A stretch of DNA of 33,753 nucleotides from Betaproteobacteria bacterium (GTDB taxonomy: Bacteria > Pseudomonadota > Gammaproteobacteria > Burkholderiales > SG8-39), in NCBI GenBank assembly GCA_016189945.1, contig JACPRN010000104.1, forward strand, positions 1-33,753. Direction: 5' to 3'. Positions within the stretch are counted from its first letter, which is position 1; every line of letters begins with the position of its first letter. The notes under the pieces are model-generated. The model was not told where the DNA came from. It ran no database searches and saw only the letters and a program-made list of their open reading frames with translations. Shown in pieces: positions 6,827 through 33,455 of this stretch. The position numbers and the translations under genes were made by a program.

Positions 6827-8701
6827 TCAGGGCTGCGCTTCGACGATCACGCGCGTTCCCTTTTCGGGCATCGATTCGATGCGACACTTGCCGCCGATCG
6901 CTTCGGCCCGTTCGCGCATGGAGAGCAGTCCGAGCCCGAGCGACTTTCCGCTCTGGCGCAACTCCGCCGAATCGAATCCGCTCCCGTTGTCCGCGATCGA
7001 CAACTCGATGCGCTCGGAATCGCTGTGAAGATCGACGGCGACCGCGCTCGCGCCGGAGTGCTTGGCGCAATTCATCAGCGCTTCCTGGGTGATGCGATAG
7101 AGCGCGATTTCCTTTTCCGCCGGCAACCTGACCGCAGGGGCTTGCCCGTTCACCGTGACCGCGATATCGGTCCTGGCGCGGAATTTTTCTCCCAGGTCTT
7201 TGAGCGCAGGCAGCAGGCCCATGTAGTCGAGCACCGCCGGATGCAGTTCCGAGCTGATTTCCCTCGTGGTTATCTGCGCGTCTTCGGCGAGGCCCGAGCA
7301 GTCGGAGATCCGGTCGCCCAGCCGCGCGAGATCATCCGGGCAAAGCTGCTTTCCGACGATTTCGAGATCGAGGCGGATCGCGGTCAGATTCGATGACACG
7401 CGGTCGTGAAGTTCGCGCGCCAGGCGCCGCTGTTCGGCCTCGAGCACCGCCACCATGCGCCGCGTGCCCTGCTGCAGGCGATCGGCGTAGCTCAACACCG
7501 AGGCCTCGGCGCGTTTGCGCTCCGCGATCTCGGCCTCGAGCTGCCGGTTGGCGGCGAGCAGCTCATCGGTTCGCTCGCGCACGCGCGCCTCGAGACCCTG
7601 GTTGAGCTCACGGATCTTGTCGTCGGCGCTCTGCCGTTCCAGCTCGAGCCGGTTGAGGTTATCGACCAGGCGGCCGACTTCGTCTTGGCGCGCGACCGGG
7701 ATCGGCGCGAAAGGCGTTTTGCCCGCGGACATGCGCTTGATCGCGCGCGTTGCCTCGTCGAGCGGCGCCATCTGGCGCCTGAGAACCAAGATCAGCAGTA
7801 ACACCGCGAGAAGCGAGATGAGCGCAGCGGTCAGGTAGATCTGTTTCGTGAACGAACGGACCGGCGCAAAAGCCTCCTCGGTGGTGATGTTCGCAATCAC
7901 GATCCATCCGGCGCTCTTCAATTTTCGGCTCACGCCGAGCACCTCGACGCCGGAGCGGGTCACGGTGATGCCGGCGCCTTCGTAGCCCTCATCGAGTCGC
8001 CGGTCGAGCATGCGGCTGGCACCTCTGGGACTCATGGGAGTCATGATCAGGCTCTGATCGGTGGCCGATACCACCAGCCGGTCGCCGGGGGAAACGACGA
8101 GGAAATTGCCGCTCTTGCCGATCCTCGCCTCGTGGAGTTTGCCGAACAGCTCGGTCTCCGAGCTGATGACAGGTGCGACCAGCGCGCCGCTCACGGCGCC
8201 GTAGGCGTCGTGCAGAGGCACTGCGATCGGGATGAGGGGGTGCGAGGAAAATCGCCCGGCCACGATGGGAGAACCGACCAGCGGCTTGTCGCCGGCCATC
8301 ACGTCGCGAAAATACGCCTGGCCTCCGAGCAGGCCGCCGCGGCGCGCCATGAAGCTCGGTGCGTGATCGGCGACGATGATCCCGTCGCGGTTGACCACCA
8401 CGACACCGAGGTGAAACAGCGTGATGGAGGGGTTACGGTGATCCAGAAGGCGCTGAATCTGCGGCGGGCCGGCGTTGCGCTCGAAAATCATCCCCGCGGC
8501 AATTTCCTTGAGCGATTCGATGCGAAACCGCAGCGCCGCGTCCAGCTCGTCGGCGACGTAGTTGACTTGCGCCGACAATTGCTCCGATATCAGTTTCTCG
8601 ATATCGGACTGGAGCACCGCGGCCATGCGCGTGGCAAAGCCCCAGAAGCCCGCGATCAGCAGAGTCATCACCAGCAGCAGAATGCGGGCCTTCAGGCTCA
8701 T
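6827..8701 (-). CDS. Sensor histidine kinase, NarX-type (HisKA_3) with periplasmic dCACHE-like domain
   Basis: The product is 624 residues from the ATG at 8701; the ORF-track start at 8833 adds a stretch without membrane or domain character that would overlap the divergent gene. Order: membrane segment 7-24; periplasmic sensor region 30-285 with a dCACHE-like pattern (VVNRDGIIVADH, GGQAYFRDVMAG, GNFLVVSPGDRLVVSA); membrane segment 288-308; HAMP about 308-360; coiled coil 360-425; HisKA_3 with the phospho-acceptor H432 in RLARELHDRV; HATPase_c from about 530 with RITQEALMNCAKHS (N544), DNGSGFD and GLGLLSMRERA. Kinases of this type phosphorylate LuxR-family response regulators. None is encoded next to it or anywhere in the window, so it is an orphan here. 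It is divergent from matB with 130 bases between, so a role in sensing an organic acid used by those genes is a guess. Confidence 0.92.
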   Translation of the reverse strand: MSLKARILLLVMTLLIAGFWGFATRMAAVLQSDIEKLISEQLSAQVNYVADELDAALRFRIESLKEIAAGMIFERNAGPPQIQRLLDHRNPSITLFHLGVVVVNRDGIIVADHAPSFMARRGGLLGGQAYFRDVMAGDKPLVGSPIVAGRFSSHPLIPIAVPLHDAYGAVSGALVAPVISSETELFGKLHEARIGKSGNFLVVSPGDRLVVSATDQSLIMTPMSPRGASRMLDRRLDEGYEGAGITVTRSGVEVLGVSRKLKSAGWIVIANITTEEAFAPVRSFTKQIYLTAALISLLAVLLLILVLRRQMAPLDEATRAIKRMSAGKTPFAPIPVARQDEVGRLVDNLNRLELERQSADDKIRELNQGLEARVRERTDELLAANRQLEAEIAERKRAEASVLSYADRLQQGTRRMVAVLEAEQRRLARELHDRVSSNLTAIRLDLEIVGKQLCPDDLARLGDRISDCSGLAEDAQITTREISSELHPAVLDYMGLLPALKDLGEKFRARTDIAVTVNGQAPAVRLPAEKEIALYRITQEALMNCAKHSGASAVAVDLHSDSERIELSIADNGSGFDSAELRQSGKSLGLGLLSMRERAEAIGGKCRIESMPEKGTRVIVEAQP

Positions 8702-26974: not shown

Positions 26975-27141
26975 GCCATCTTAGCAGCCCGTTCGGCAGC
27001 GCTCGCGCGGAAACTTTCCCGCGGCGGGTCCCGCCGGCACGCGCATGCGGCAAGGGCGCGCCGAGGGAATAAGCGCGCGGCGGCGGCTGTTTGCTTTCGT
27101 GCGTCGCTGCACCAGCGACGCCTCGGAGCGAAGGAGGAGCA

Positions 27142-27639
27142 ATGTCACTGAAGCACGTCTTGCGAGCGGTGTTGGCCGGCGCCCTTGCGCTGCTTTCGTT
27201 TTCGGCCCTGGCGCAGCAAAACCTGCAAACCATGCCCTTCGGCAACCCCGTCGGCATCGACACGGCGAGGAAGATGGCGGCCGCCTCGGCCGCCGAGGCG
27301 AGAAGAAACGGCTGGCCGGTGTGCATCGCGATCGTCGATTATCACGGGGACCTGGTGTATTTCGAACGGCTGGACGACACCCAGCTCGGCAGCGTTGCGG
27401 TGGCGATCGACAAGGCGCGCACGGCGGCGAAGTTCAAGCGCTCGACCAAGCTGCTCGAGGATGCCGTAGCCGGCGGCCGCAATGCGCTGCTCAAGCTCGG
27501 CGACGCCTCGCCCATCCAGGGCGGTCTGCCGATCGCGGTCAGCGGCAGGTTCGTCGGCGCCATCGGCGTTTCCGGCGTGGCTTCCCACCAGGACGAGCAG
27601 GTCGCCGCAGCGGGGCTCGCTGCTCTTGCCGCCAAGTAG
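27142..27639 (+). CDS. GlcG/HbpS-family heme-degrading-domain protein, exported
   Basis: The product is 165 residues from the ATG at 27142, with AAGGAGGAG upstream; the ORF-track start at 27091 has no such site. The signal peptide MSLKHVLRAVLAGALALLSFSALA is cleaved before QQN. The body is a single GlcG/HbpS domain: GIDTARKMAAASAAEARRNGWPVCIAIVDYHGDLVYFERLD, then AIDKARTAAKFKRST, and GGLPIAVSGRFVGAIGVSG. The family includes GlcG of the glycolate operon and heme-binding HbpS of Streptomyces; its biochemical role in glycolate clusters is not settled. It faces the glcF-like/flavoprotein/Bug operon, to which it is convergent, so a link to that hydroxyacid-oxidising unit is likely. Confidence 0.88.
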   Translation: MSLKHVLRAVLAGALALLSFSALAQQNLQTMPFGNPVGIDTARKMAAASAAEARRNGWPVCIAIVDYHGDLVYFERLDDTQLGSVAVAIDKARTAAKFKRSTKLLEDAVAGGRNALLKLGDASPIQGGLPIAVSGRFVGAIGVSGVASHQDEQVAAAGLAALAAK

Positions 27640-27706: not shown

Positions 27707-28672
27707 TCACTGTGCCTTGATGTTTCCCTTGGCCGCCACCTGTTTGTACTGGCTGATCTGCGCCTTCATGGTCGCCGACAATTCCGCCGCGGTGCTGCCG
27801 ACGGGCTCCACGCCCAGATTCATCATGCGCTCGCGCAGGTCCGGCTGAAACACGACTTGCGCGATTTCCTTTTGCAGCCGGGTGGTGAGAGCGCCCAAGG
27901 TTCCGGCCGGCGCGAAAATCCCGGACCACAACACCATCTCGTAGCCAGGGACACCGGACTCGGCAATGGTCGGCAGCTCGGGCACGATGCGCACGCGCTT
28001 GGCGCTCGACACCGCGATCGCGCGCAGCTTTCCGGCCTTGATCTGCGCCATGACCGCGGCGCTGTCGGCAAAGGTCAATGCGACCTCGCCCGACAGCACG
28101 GCGTTGACCGCCGGCGCGCTGCCTTTGTAGGGAATGTGGTTGAGGGCGATTCCGGCGCGCTGGGCGAACATTTCAGTCGCCAATTGAAACGAAGTGGCCG
28201 CCGAGCTGTAGTTGATCCTGCCCGGGCTCGCCTTTGCGATCGCGATCAGCTCCGCGGTCGTCTTCGCTGCAACCGAAGGGTGCACCGTCAGGATCAGCGG
28301 AAACAGGCCGACCATGCTGACCGGCGCAAAATCCTTGATCGGATCGTAGGGGAGGTCGGCGTAGAGCGCGGGGTTCACCGTCATGCCGCTGCTCGGGCCC
28401 ACCAGCAGCATGTAGCCGTCGGCGGCGGCGCGCTTGACCTGCTCGATGGCGATGATGCCGTTCGCGCCGGGTTTGTTCTCCACGATAAAGGGTTGCCCCA
28501 GGGCGGTTTGCAGCTTCTCGCCCACGAGGCGCGCGAGGATGTCGTTGCCGCCGCCCGGCGGGAAGCCGACCACGAGCTTGACCGGCTTGCTCGGATACTG
28601 ATCCTGCGCGGACGACATCCCGCCAAACACAAAGGCGGCAAGGCCAAAAACGAAAACGAGCAACTTCTTCAT
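27707..28672 (-). CDS. Bug/TctC-family receptor (copy 4)
   Basis: The product is 321 residues; the ATG at 28672 follows GGAGG by seven bases. The signal peptide is MKKLLVFVFGLAAFVFGGMSSAQ. Motifs: VKLVVGFPPGGGNDILARLVGEKL, FIVENKPGANGIIAIEQVKRAAADGYMLLVGPSSGM, DLPYDPIKDFAPVSMV and IPYKGSAPAVNAVLSGEV. It is clearly more distant from the other three copies in the window. It is the third gene after the glcF-like and flavoprotein genes (gap 21 bases), so its ligand is probably the substrate of that oxidase, perhaps a hydroxycarboxylic acid. Confidence 0.93.
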   Translation of the reverse strand: MKKLLVFVFGLAAFVFGGMSSAQDQYPSKPVKLVVGFPPGGGNDILARLVGEKLQTALGQPFIVENKPGANGIIAIEQVKRAAADGYMLLVGPSSGMTVNPALYADLPYDPIKDFAPVSMVGLFPLILTVHPSVAAKTTAELIAIAKASPGRINYSSAATSFQLATEMFAQRAGIALNHIPYKGSAPAVNAVLSGEVALTFADSAAVMAQIKAGKLRAIAVSSAKRVRIVPELPTIAESGVPGYEMVLWSGIFAPAGTLGALTTRLQKEIAQVVFQPDLRERMMNLGVEPVGSTAAELSATMKAQISQYKQVAAKGNIKAQ

Positions 28673-28693: not shown

Positions 28694-30220
28694 CTAATCA
28701 ATCCCGTATTTTCCGGGAGCGATGATTCCGTTGGGGTCAAGCGCGCGCTTGATCGCGGCGCAGGCCTCCACAAAAGCGCTCATGCGCTGCCCCTGATGAA
28801 ACCCCTGGTACGCGGTCGGGGCACGGCCGACGAAAACCCCCTTGCCGGCGAACTCCAGGGCAAGCGCCCGATAGCAGGCGTCCGCGCGCGCGGTTTCCTC
28901 CGCATCGCCGCGATTATAGACGAGCGTGTGCACGCCGCGGGCAAAGCGCGGCCCACACACGTTCGACACCATGTACTCCAGTCCATGATCGCGGCAGATC
29001 CCGCGCGATGCGAGGTGAAACTCGTTCGCCACCGAACCGATCATCGGCGTTCGCGGCAGGAACCAGATTGTTCCGCCCCCCGGGCGCCAGCGCAACATTT
29101 TCAACTCGCCTTCGCCCGGCACCCCTTCGTAGGAGTTCATCGAAATGCGCAGCGGGGCAATCTCGTTCGCCTCTTCGAGCGCGATGAACCGGCCCTTGCC
29201 GCTGCGCGTGAAATGGGCGATCACCCGATCGAGCTGCGGCTGGACCGCCTGGCGGCTTGCGCCGTAAAAGGCGCCCGAAACTGTCCACGAGCCGAGGCCA
29301 TATCGTTTCTGCAGCGCGCGGCGCGCCTCGTCTGTGATCTGCTTCTTGCCGCCGCTTTGGCCGTACTCCGGGTGCACGCAATCGGCCGCGATCAGGTAGA
29401 GGTCGTTGGTGGCGCGGATCTGCGTGGGAACGAAATTGGAAAGCTTCAACGGGCGGATCAAATCGACGATCTGGTGCAGGTCGGTGTCGTCGGGAAAAGT
29501 AAAGAAGAACGATTCGATGTGCGGGGGCCTGGGCATGACCCACATGCCCGCGCGCGTGACGATGCCGTAGTTCGATTGCGTGAACAGCCCCTCGAGATAG
29601 GGACCGAAGCTGTACTTCGAGACGTGCCAGTTCAAGTGCGAGGCCGACTCGAGGCTCCCGTCGCCCGTGCGAATGACGTCGCCCGAGCCGAGGACCACCT
29701 CCATGCCGCACAGGGTCCCAAAGTGGTCCGCATAGGCGCCGCTGCCGCCCCCCTTGTCGAGGGCATTCCCGAGCAGAGAGCCCTGGGGCGGGCCGGCGGT
29801 GGCCGAGATCATGAGCTTGCTCTTACGCTTCACCAGCTCGTCGTACATCGCCTGAAAGGTCACGCCCGGCTCCACTACGCAGTAGGCGAGGGCCTCGTTC
29901 ACTTCGATCACGCGCGACATCCGGCGCCCGAGGTCGACCACCACCTGCCCGGCGCGCACGGACGATCGCGAGCCCAGGCCGATGTTCTGTCCGGTGCTGA
30001 TGGGATAGAGCGGAACCCGGTATCGGTTGGCCGCCAGCACCAGCTTTTGCACCGCTTGCGTCGAGTCGGGAAAAGCCACGGCGGCGGGGCGAAGGTCCGG
30101 TCCGGGGAGCGTGTGCTCGCCATAGCGCGTGAGCACCTCCTCGCCGGTCGAGATCGCCTCGGACCCGAGTTCCCCGCTCACCGCCTGAACAAATGCCCGG
30201 ATTGATTCTTCGTTCGCCAC
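28694..30220 (-). CDS. PCMH/VAO-family flavoprotein oxidoreductase (4-cresol-dehydrogenase-like), divergent active site
   Basis: The product is 508 residues from a GTG at 30220, with AGAGGAG six bases upstream; the ORF track's longer frame overlaps glcF. It aligns along its whole length with PchF, the flavoprotein of p-cresol methylhydroxylase: LYPISTGQNIGLGS, CVVEPGVTFQAMYDEL, GPYLEGLFTQSNYGIVTRAGMW, RWRPGGGTIWF and the C-terminal RALDPNGIIAPGKYGID. Key residues differ. Tyr384 of PchF, which binds FAD covalently, is L376; the phenol-binding Tyr95 and Tyr473 are L82 and G465; Arg474 is kept as R466. FAD is thus probably non-covalent and the substrate probably not a phenol. The partner is a GlcF-like Fe-S protein 11 bases upstream rather than the cytochrome of PCMH. 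PchF residue numbers are from memory. Confidence 0.88.
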   Translation of the reverse strand: MANEESIRAFVQAVSGELGSEAISTGEEVLTRYGEHTLPGPDLRPAAVAFPDSTQAVQKLVLAANRYRVPLYPISTGQNIGLGSRSSVRAGQVVVDLGRRMSRVIEVNEALAYCVVEPGVTFQAMYDELVKRKSKLMISATAGPPQGSLLGNALDKGGGSGAYADHFGTLCGMEVVLGSGDVIRTGDGSLESASHLNWHVSKYSFGPYLEGLFTQSNYGIVTRAGMWVMPRPPHIESFFFTFPDDTDLHQIVDLIRPLKLSNFVPTQIRATNDLYLIAADCVHPEYGQSGGKKQITDEARRALQKRYGLGSWTVSGAFYGASRQAVQPQLDRVIAHFTRSGKGRFIALEEANEIAPLRISMNSYEGVPGEGELKMLRWRPGGGTIWFLPRTPMIGSVANEFHLASRGICRDHGLEYMVSNVCGPRFARGVHTLVYNRGDAEETARADACYRALALEFAGKGVFVGRAPTAYQGFHQGQRMSAFVEACAAIKRALDPNGIIAPGKYGID

Positions 30221-30231
30221 GCGCTGCTCCT

Positions 30232-31605
30232 CTACCAGAAAGCCGAATTGTCGCCGTTTGCCTCCGCCGCCGGGACCTCCGCGCTGGCTTCCTGCGCAAG
30301 CGGCCGCGGGACAAAACCCTCCAGCCCGCGCGGAGCGGGGCCGCCGCTCGCCCAATCGACGAGCTGCACCGTGTGCGCAACCGGATATTCGGCAAAACGC
30401 GAGATCTGGATGAGACAACCGAGGTTGCCCGCAGCGATCACATCGGGCGCGATCGCTTCGATGTTCGCGGCCTTCCTTTGGCCCAGCCGCGCGGACATCT
30501 CGGGCTGAAGGATGTTGTAGGTGCCCGCGGAACCGCAACAGATGTGGCCCTCGGCGATATCGGCGACCACATAGCCCATCTTGCGCAGCAGCGCCCGCGG
30601 CTCGCGCGTGATCCTCTGGCCGTGCTTCATGGAGCAGGCATCGTGGTAGGCGACCAGTGCTCCGCTGTTGGTGTTCGCAAGCGGCAAGGGAAGCTCAGCG
30701 AGAATAACGCTGATGTCGCGCGCGGCTCTTGCAACCGAGGCTGCCGCCTGGCCGAGTTCCGCGTCATCGGCAAACAGCTCGTCGTAGTGGCGAATGACCG
30801 AGCCGCAACCCGAGGTGGTGACGGCGATCGCATCGATTGCGCCTGCGGCGAGCATTTCGCCCCAGTGGCGCACGCAGCGCGCCGCCTGCTTGATCGCCTG
30901 CTCGCGAAACCCCAGGTGCAGCTTCATCGCCCCGCAGCAGAAATTCCCTCGTGACTCGACCACGCGCACCCCCGCGCGCGCGAGCACGCGCCTGGCGGCG
31001 CAATTGATTTCGGCGCCCAGGACCGACTGCGCGCAGCCCTCGAGCAGGGCCACCGAGCGAAGTTGTGGCGACGGCGCCTCGCGCGAGCAGGGCGCAGGCA
31101 AGACCGGTGCACCGCGCGGCGAAAACGCGGCCAGCCCCGGCGCATTGGCGAGCCGGCCGAGCGCGCCGAGCCGGCCAGGAAGCGCGCATACCAATCCGGA
31201 GAGCGGCTTGCCGAGAATCCGCAACCCCCGGAGCATTCGCGGGCTGGTCAGCAGCGCCGCCACGCCACTGCGAAAGAGGCGATCGGGCAGCGATCTCACG
31301 CGGCTTGATTCGACGTACTCGCGGGCGATGTCGATCAGAACGCGGTAATTGACCCCCGCCCCGCAGCTCGTCTCGCACGACAGGCACGACAGGCAGCGAT
31401 CGAGATGAACGACAGTCGCCCGCCGCGGCGGCGCTTTCGATGCGAGCATCTCCTTGATGAGGACGAAGCGCCCGCGCGGCGAATCGTTTTCCTCGCCGTC
31501 CAAGATGTAGGTCGGGCACACGGCGGTGCAAAAGCCGAAATGAACGCATTCGCCGGCGGCAGCCCGCGCTTGGTCGAGCCGGGTTATCGGGATCGGAGCG
31601 TGCAT
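30232..31605 (-). CDS. GlcF-like iron-sulfur subunit with a modified first cluster motif
   Basis: The product is 457 residues from the ATG at 31605 (MHAPIPITRLDQ); the ORF-track start at 31728 is within the intergenic terminator region. It resembles the glycolate oxidase Fe-S subunit: CVHFGFCTAVCPTYILDGEENDSPRGR, then CLSCLSCETSCGAGVNY (C71, C74, C77, C81), and two CCG domains (GNFCCGAMKLHLGF, SGCGSVIRHY; HDACSMKHGQR, HICCGSAGTYN). The first ferredoxin motif should read CxxCxxCxxxCP, but the second cysteine is F23 (codon TTC, one base from TGC), leaving C20, C26 and C30. This cluster may be [3Fe-4S] or take another ligand. It likely carries electrons from the flavoprotein downstream to the quinone pool. 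No GlcD/GlcE pair is here. Confidence 0.9.
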   Translation of the reverse strand: MHAPIPITRLDQARAAAGECVHFGFCTAVCPTYILDGEENDSPRGRFVLIKEMLASKAPPRRATVVHLDRCLSCLSCETSCGAGVNYRVLIDIAREYVESSRVRSLPDRLFRSGVAALLTSPRMLRGLRILGKPLSGLVCALPGRLGALGRLANAPGLAAFSPRGAPVLPAPCSREAPSPQLRSVALLEGCAQSVLGAEINCAARRVLARAGVRVVESRGNFCCGAMKLHLGFREQAIKQAARCVRHWGEMLAAGAIDAIAVTTSGCGSVIRHYDELFADDAELGQAAASVARAARDISVILAELPLPLANTNSGALVAYHDACSMKHGQRITREPRALLRKMGYVVADIAEGHICCGSAGTYNILQPEMSARLGQRKAANIEAIAPDVIAAGNLGCLIQISRFAEYPVAHTVQLVDWASGGPAPRGLEGFVPRPLAQEASAEVPAAEANGDNSAFW

Positions 31606-33032: not shown

Positions 33033-33455
33033 TCATCCCTTGGCCTTTCGACGGAGCAGCGCCTTCAGGCGTTTCGTCAAGCCTGGACGGTCCTCGCGCG
33101 AGGCCGCTACATCGAGCACCAATGCCTCCCAGGCATCGACCTCGCGAGCGGGAAGGTCCGGATCGGGAAGCGCGCCGTTTGCCTGCAGGAACACAAGGCA
33201 AGCCGCCAGGGCTGTGCGCTTGTTGCCGTCCACGAACGAGTGGTTGCGGCACAGATGGAACAGATAGGCAGCCCCGATATCGATCGTCTTCGAAATCAGC
33301 GGCTCGCCGGCAAACGACGCCTGCGGCGCCGCCACCGCGGCCTCAAGCAGCGCCCGGTCGCGTATGCCGGCTCCTCCACCGTGCGCCGAGATCACCTCCG
33401 CATGGATGCCGAGGACCGCCTCGACATCGAGGTGGATCGGAGCGGCTTTAGGCAA
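33033..33455 (-). CDS. doc: Doc-type (Fic-fold) toxin of a toxin-antitoxin pair
   Basis: The product is 140 residues, near the 126-residue P1 Doc. The Fic/Doc core motif is HSFVDGNKRTA, with H72 and R80, complete for catalysis; P1 Doc has A where this has G. Doc toxins phosphorylate elongation factor Tu using this motif with reversed nucleotide orientation, while classical Fic proteins transfer AMP; the short length and the antitoxin partner favour Doc. GGAGIRDRALLEAAVAAP at residues 27-44 is the usual N-terminal region of the family. Its start lies eight bases inside the antitoxin gene, so translation is coupled. Confidence 0.92.
   Translation of the reverse strand: MPKAAPIHLDVEAVLGIHAEVISAHGGGAGIRDRALLEAAVAAPQASFAGEPLISKTIDIGAAYLFHLCRNHSFVDGNKRTALAACLVFLQANGALPDPDLPAREVDAWEALVLDVAASREDRPGLTKRLKALLRRKAKG

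Follow-up and report, generated by a model that had tools for sequence, protein, structure and literature searches.

A 4-cresol dehydrogenase-like flavoprotein without the phenol-binding tyrosines, encoded next to a GlcF-like iron-sulfur protein that lacks a cluster cysteine

Introduction

The 4-phenol oxidoreductases of the VAO/PCMH fold, including 4-cresol dehydrogenase (PchF; PDB ID: 1dii and 1wve), possess a Tyr-Tyr-Arg phenolate clamp (Y95, Y473, and R474 in PchF), which is conserved in all of the enzymes surveyed (PMC11148156). The FAD of PchF is covalently attached to Tyr384, that of VAO and VAD to a His residue (H422 and H387, respectively), and PchF is accompanied by the cytochrome PchC and by PchX. 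A non-covalent exception is nsVAO from Novosphingobium, a vanillyl alcohol-oxidizing member of the EUGH clade, which has Leu at both the Tyr and His sites and was found in its crystal structure to bind FAD without a covalent bond (PMC7617285).

GlcF, a subunit of the classical GlcDEF system, has two CCG domains together with two ferredoxin-like motifs, and mycobacterial EtfD, a CCG-domain Fe-S protein with a membrane heme b domain, carries flavin electrons from its partner ETF to menaquinone through two cubane clusters that are fully ligated by Cys (PMC13083937). FAD-binding oxidoreductases encoded together with an Fe-S protein have also been described in the benzene-related clusters BzS1_12970-12990 and ORM2 'Magic', both of which were likened to GlcDEF by their authors (PMC13416013, PMC13101534).

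The locus described herein lies in a stretch of 33,753 nucleotides from a betaproteobacterium (contig JACPRN010000104.1; hereafter, the window) and shares some features with each of these systems. Its flavoprotein is homologous to PchF over the whole length and retains Arg474 (as R466) and Glu380 (as E372), whereas Tyr95, Tyr384, Tyr473, Glu427, His436, and Asp440 are all replaced, and its partner is a GlcF-like protein instead of PchC and PchX. It resembles nsVAO in having Leu at the Tyr-linking position and no His at the other site, but falls in a clade of its own, which lacks the phenol clamp. The partner has the motifs and domains of GlcF; unlike in GlcDEF, however, the catalytic subunit is of the PCMH type rather than GlcD, GlcE is missing, and one cluster Cys has been lost. 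The two cubane-cluster motifs, the two CCG domains, and the proposed route from a flavoprotein to the quinone pool recall EtfD, which is set apart by its heme b domain, its ETF partner, and the complete Cys ligation of both its cubane clusters, while the BzS1 and ORM2 clusters differ in having two flavoproteins per complex and in belonging to anaerobes. No description of the flavoprotein, its clade, or the gene pair was found in the open-licence literature.

Results

Flavoprotein gene and its overall fold

The genes considered here are as follows.

30232..31605, (-) strand: GlcF-like Fe-S protein, 457 aa, ATG start; NF008434 at 338.8 bits (cut-off 333), Pfam CCG (two copies) and Fer4
28694..30220, (-) strand: VAO/PCMH-type flavoprotein, 508 aa, GTG start, without the equivalents of PchF Tyr95, Tyr384, and Tyr473
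27707..28672, (-) strand: TctC-type solute-binding protein of a tripartite tricarboxylate transporter, PF03401 at 219 bits, 21 bp downstream of the flavoprotein gene

The flavoprotein reading frame opens with the GTG at 30220, downstream of an AGGAG box, and runs for 508 residues without any internal stop. In a phmmer search of solved structures, PchF (1wve/1dii) was the best relative with an E-value of 1.5e-99 over residues 11-508, followed by other 4-phenol oxidases and dehydrogenases, and D-lactate and glycolate dehydrogenases were matched only at 1e-13 or weaker. The FAD_binding_4 domain (PF01565) scored 85.8 bits, above the Pfam cut-off, and the NCBIfam GlcD model reached only 51.2 bits against its cut-off of 567.9. 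The fold of the 4-phenol oxidoreductases thus extends over the whole protein, in good agreement with the original prediction, which had described it as PchF-like from end to end. An AlphaFold2 model built on an alignment of nine similar sequences had a mean pLDDT of 52.4, reflecting the small depth of the alignment, and its quality did not permit superposition or a search by fold. Since no signal peptide was evident by eye, the system is probably cytoplasmic.

Replacement of the clamp and FAD-linking tyrosines

A MAFFT alignment to PchF, in which the numbering was checked and an offset of 22 yielded Y95, Y384, Y473, R474, E380, E427, H436, and W394, placed L82, L376, G465, and R466 opposite Tyr95, Tyr384, Tyr473, and Arg474, respectively. 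The codons in question are listed below.

29975..29977, (-) strand: L82, at the position of PchF Tyr95 (phenol clamp), from the alignment
29093..29095, (-) strand: L376, at the position of PchF Tyr384 (FAD attachment), from the alignment
28823..28828, (-) strand: G465-R466, at the positions of PchF Tyr473-Arg474, from the alignment
28937..28939, (-) strand: R428, at the position of PchF His436; Arg in 26/26 clade members and His in all 15 PchF-group sequences

These assignments, obtained separately, coincide with those made originally, namely three lost tyrosines and one retained arginine.

Relatives were gathered by a related-locus search and by searching whole genomes from the order, the phylum, an Alcaligenaceae-type family, an alphaproteobacterial class, and one further family, as well as plasmids; two scans of viral contigs for further relatives found none. 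Among the genomes searched, 26 sequences from Beta- and Alphaproteobacteria, including the window protein, formed one branch with a long stem (support 100/100; 52-70% identity). Position 82 is Leu in 25 of them and Met in the remaining one, position 376 is likewise Leu in 25 with a single Cys, and positions 465-466 are Gly-Arg without exception, while all 15 sequences of the PchF group have Tyr, Tyr, and Tyr-Arg at the same sites. The window protein is therefore not a degenerate copy, and Leu/Leu/Gly-Arg is a conserved trait of the clade; the check that had been proposed, conservation of this signature in homologues next to GlcF-like genes, was run and passed. The most divergent member, the flavoprotein of G735 (L054/L068; 52%), carries the Cys at the Tyr384 position and has Thr at the W394 position.

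Outside the clade, 35 relatives including PchF were compared (27-38% identity); 34 of them retain Tyr95 and 33 retain Tyr473, but Tyr384 is missing here, too, in many sequences that probably belong to the oxidase type. Loss of the clamp, more than loss of the FAD link, is thus what distinguishes the clade. The equivalent of Arg466 was present in all 61 aligned sequences, and hence by itself does not point to a carboxylate substrate.

The comparison further revealed 37 positions fixed differently in the clade and the PchF group. The original list of changes was correct but incomplete in this respect, as E427, H436, D440, V279, and V483 have also changed in a clade-specific manner: His436, Val279, and Val483 of PchF, together with Gln209, correspond to R428, R269, H475, and H199 of the window protein, Glu427 is Ser or Met in the clade, and D440 is replaced by Thr, Ala, Ser, Val, or Gln, with Glu380 retained as E372. 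In RjEUGO, residues 436 and 438 are published substrate contacts (PMC11148156). As R428 corresponds to the strand residue two positions earlier, we infer from this analogy that its side chain would face the substrate. Beside the flavin N5, the residue pair reads A142-G143 in the PchF register and G143-P144 in the VAD register, being uncertain by one position, so that this pair does not speak against oxidase activity, and a Pro to Gly change considered for this site was dropped because of this one-residue difference.

Putative mode of FAD binding

Neither of the residues used for covalent attachment, the Tyr of PchF (Y384) or the His of VAO (H422) and VAD (H387), was found in the window protein. 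The former position is occupied by L376 (Cys in one clade member), and the VAO/EUGO His site corresponds to T384 in a phmmer alignment with VAD, whose linked residue is H387. The BBE-type His site appeared by eye to be Q78. With Leu at the Tyr site and no linking residue at the other known sites, the flavoprotein is likely to hold its FAD non-covalently; the earlier proposal to this effect is well supported by the sequence and has a precedent in nsVAO.

GlcF-like partner with an altered cluster motif

The GlcF-like gene, encoding two ferredoxin-type motifs and two CCG domains, ends 11 bp before the flavoprotein gene. The same arrangement recurs in 24 of the 26 clade members of both classes, with glcF lying 9-59 bp upstream, and an annotated Rhizobium leguminosarum plasmid has an identical gene order. 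The two members without an adjacent glcF (L010 and L011) come from genomes that hold a second, GlcF-linked copy (L122 and L118, respectively). These glcF-less copies are accompanied by tctC and araC, and their products may rely on the GlcF of the linked copy or on a different acceptor.

The flavoprotein-linked GlcFs constitute one clade (support 100/99) separate from the canonical GlcFs of the same genomes. All 17 genomes examined in this respect contain a GlcF encoded away from the flavoprotein gene, and the genome of the window itself has a separate canonical glcE-glcF pair (L098), in which the Cys motif is intact. No open reading frame for GlcE was found between or beside the flavoprotein and GlcF-like genes, a GlcE-like protein being encoded only beside the canonical GlcF at L098. 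A phmmer search of the PDB with the GlcF-like protein gave no relative at an E-value of 0.001. By eye, the relatives of the PchF group are adjoined by a small cytochrome c (PchC), a Tat-type PchX-like protein, and a PchA-like aldehyde dehydrogenase; neither PchC nor PchX is encoded beside the window flavoprotein, where the GlcF-like gene and tctC are found instead.

The first of the two CxxCxxCxxxC motifs in the window GlcF reads C-x2-F-x2-C-x3-C, so that only one complete motif remains in place of the two in GlcDEF.

31537..31539, (-) strand: codon of GlcF F23, which occupies the second Cys position of motif 1 (CxxCxxCxxxC; residue 24 when numbering starts one codon upstream)

This position is Phe or Tyr in all 23 linked GlcFs that include the region and Cys in all 16 canonical ones, and the other seven motif Cys residues and the CCG Cys residues are retained in the canonical proteins and in the linked ones (23/23). 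When 201 genomes of the family were scanned for this altered motif, 16 matches were obtained, namely 12 GlcFs directly beside the flavoprotein gene and 4 chance short frames.

In EtfD, cluster D4, which adjoins heme b, is ligated by the first three Cys residues of motif 1 and the last Cys of motif 2 (PMC13083937), and by comparison the Cys lost from GlcF belongs to the terminal cluster. The window GlcF shows the ligand pattern of [3Fe-4S] clusters in paired ferredoxin-like motifs, in which one motif has a non-Cys residue at its second Cys position and the other seven Cys residues remain. In 7Fe ferredoxins and SdhB, seven of the eight Cys residues are present, the missing second Cys of one motif gives a [3Fe-4S] cluster, and in SdhB this cluster is located beside the quinone. 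By this analogy, the three-Cys cluster of the GlcF-like protein is predicted to be a [3Fe-4S] cluster like that of 7Fe ferredoxins, although a fourth, non-Cys ligand at the changed site could give a [4Fe-4S] cluster instead.

Gene neighborhood and putative substrate

The tctC gene probably shares an operon with the flavoprotein gene and also occurs near several of its homologues, but, given the abundance of TctC genes in this group of bacteria, says little about the substrate. Convergent with tctC lies a GlcG/HbpS-like gene (27136-27639, (+) strand; PF03928, 123.7 bits). The glc operon of E. coli includes GlcG; no GlcG/HbpS-like gene was seen beside the flavoprotein homologues checked. Elsewhere in the window, an open reading frame at 33033-33455 on the (-) strand resembles by eye a Fic/Doc-type (death-on-curing) protein.

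The neighbors vary among the relatives and often concern the breakdown of aromatic acids, without a single common pathway. In three alphaproteobacteria of one genus (L110, L111, and L112), the alpha and beta subunits of a Rieske ring-hydroxylating dioxygenase are encoded upstream of glcF and an Asp/Glu-racemase-family protein downstream of the flavoprotein gene. At L068, where the flavoprotein gene occupies 7001-8503, a nearby sulfatase-family gene is followed by that of a 3-hydroxyanthranilate 3,4-dioxygenase. A salicylyl-CoA 5-hydroxylase-like protein is encoded near the flavoprotein at L063 and on the Rhizobium plasmid, L009 has a neighbor of the benzoate-CoA-ligase family that scores below the model cut-off, and an AraC regulator resembling FeaR is a recurrent neighbor. 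Two distant relatives, L068 and L112, have sulfatase-family genes no more than some 5 kb away from that of the flavoprotein. A link to indole-acetate breakdown, raised by the aromatic neighbors, found no evidence.

As for the substrate itself, both clamp tyrosines are gone in 26/26 sequences, the window protein having L82, G465, and R466 in place of Tyr-Tyr-Arg. Absence across the clade of a clamp published as universal (PMC11148156) supports a non-phenolic substrate, as had been proposed. The accompanying idea of a carboxylate is plausible only: R466, being universal, does not speak for it, and R269, R428, the GlcF partner, and the TctC neighbor lean in its favor. A carboxylate, perhaps an aromatic 2-hydroxyacid, would fit the added arginines R428 and R269, with their putative roles in the pocket, and the GlcF partner.

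Discussion

Taken together, we consider it reasonably probable that the two genes encode a two-subunit dehydrogenase, in which a PCMH-type flavoprotein with non-covalently bound FAD oxidizes a non-phenolic acid and a GlcF-like subunit passes the electrons to quinone. In the proposed mechanism, the flavoprotein would be the catalytic subunit of a cytoplasmic, quinone-linked enzyme; the substrate, most likely a small or aromatic acid such as a 2-hydroxyacid, would be held by R466 and the clade-specific R428 and R269 and would deliver a hydride to N5 of the non-covalently bound FAD. From there, single electrons would travel via the clusters of the GlcF-like protein to the membrane quinone pool, not to a periplasmic cytochrome c. 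F23 would leave three Cys residues at the counterpart of the final cluster ahead of heme b in EtfD, and the predicted [3Fe-4S] cluster would resemble that next to the quinone in succinate dehydrogenase. More tentatively, and in our estimate falling slightly short of an even chance, the pair may represent an undescribed respiratory dehydrogenase, in which a rebuilt, phenol-free flavoprotein has co-evolved with a 7Fe-type GlcF bearing a terminal [3Fe-4S] cluster and transfers electrons from an acid of aromatic catabolism directly to quinone.

A different reading would keep a phenolic or other neutral aromatic substrate, bound through a rearranged clamp, and change only the electron acceptor. The aromatic-catabolic neighbors (the Rieske dioxygenase, 3-hydroxyanthranilate 3,4-dioxygenase, and salicylyl-CoA 5-hydroxylase-like proteins) and the presence of R466 in 61/61 sequences speak for it, but with E427, H436, and D440 replaced along with both tyrosines of the otherwise universal clamp, we regard it as unlikely. 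It is still less probable that the flavoprotein simply takes the place of GlcD in an ordinary dehydrogenase for glycolate or lactate that is paired with GlcF. Against the GlcD model, the flavoprotein reaches 51 bits where 568 are required, the cluster has no GlcE, the same genome already holds the canonical glcE-glcF of L098 with its intact Cys motif, and the linked GlcF belongs to a separate clade with the cluster Cys missing; these points outweigh the NCBIfam GlcF cut-off passed by the neighbor, the GlcG/HbpS-like gene nearby, and the status of GlcDEF as the classical partner system.

The existence of L010 and L011 without glcF might instead indicate a flavoprotein oxidase that passes its electrons to O2 or to a soluble acceptor, with the neighboring GlcF as a passenger, and the N5-side residue is Gly in the PchF register, a P151G substitution having converted VAD into an oxidase (PMC7617285). 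Across two classes, the two genes are nevertheless closely linked and form matching monophyletic groups, and the Cys loss is common to the linked GlcFs only, which makes this explanation very improbable. The quinone-linked two-subunit dehydrogenase remains our preferred reading.

Automatic annotation as an FAD-binding oxidoreductase and GlcF hides the likely differences in substrate and cofactor. Non-covalent FAD is already known among such relatives from nsVAO; what is new is the coupled change of the Fe-S partner. One flavoprotein scaffold appears to have shifted its partner from a periplasmic cytochrome c to a cytoplasmic Fe-S/quinone route, with matching changes in both subunits, namely the loss of the covalent FAD link and the phenol clamp in one and of a cluster Cys in the other. 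The gene pair makes it possible to test for what purpose the family needs a covalent flavin bond, and by which route a subgroup of flavoproteins swaps its electron-transfer partners.
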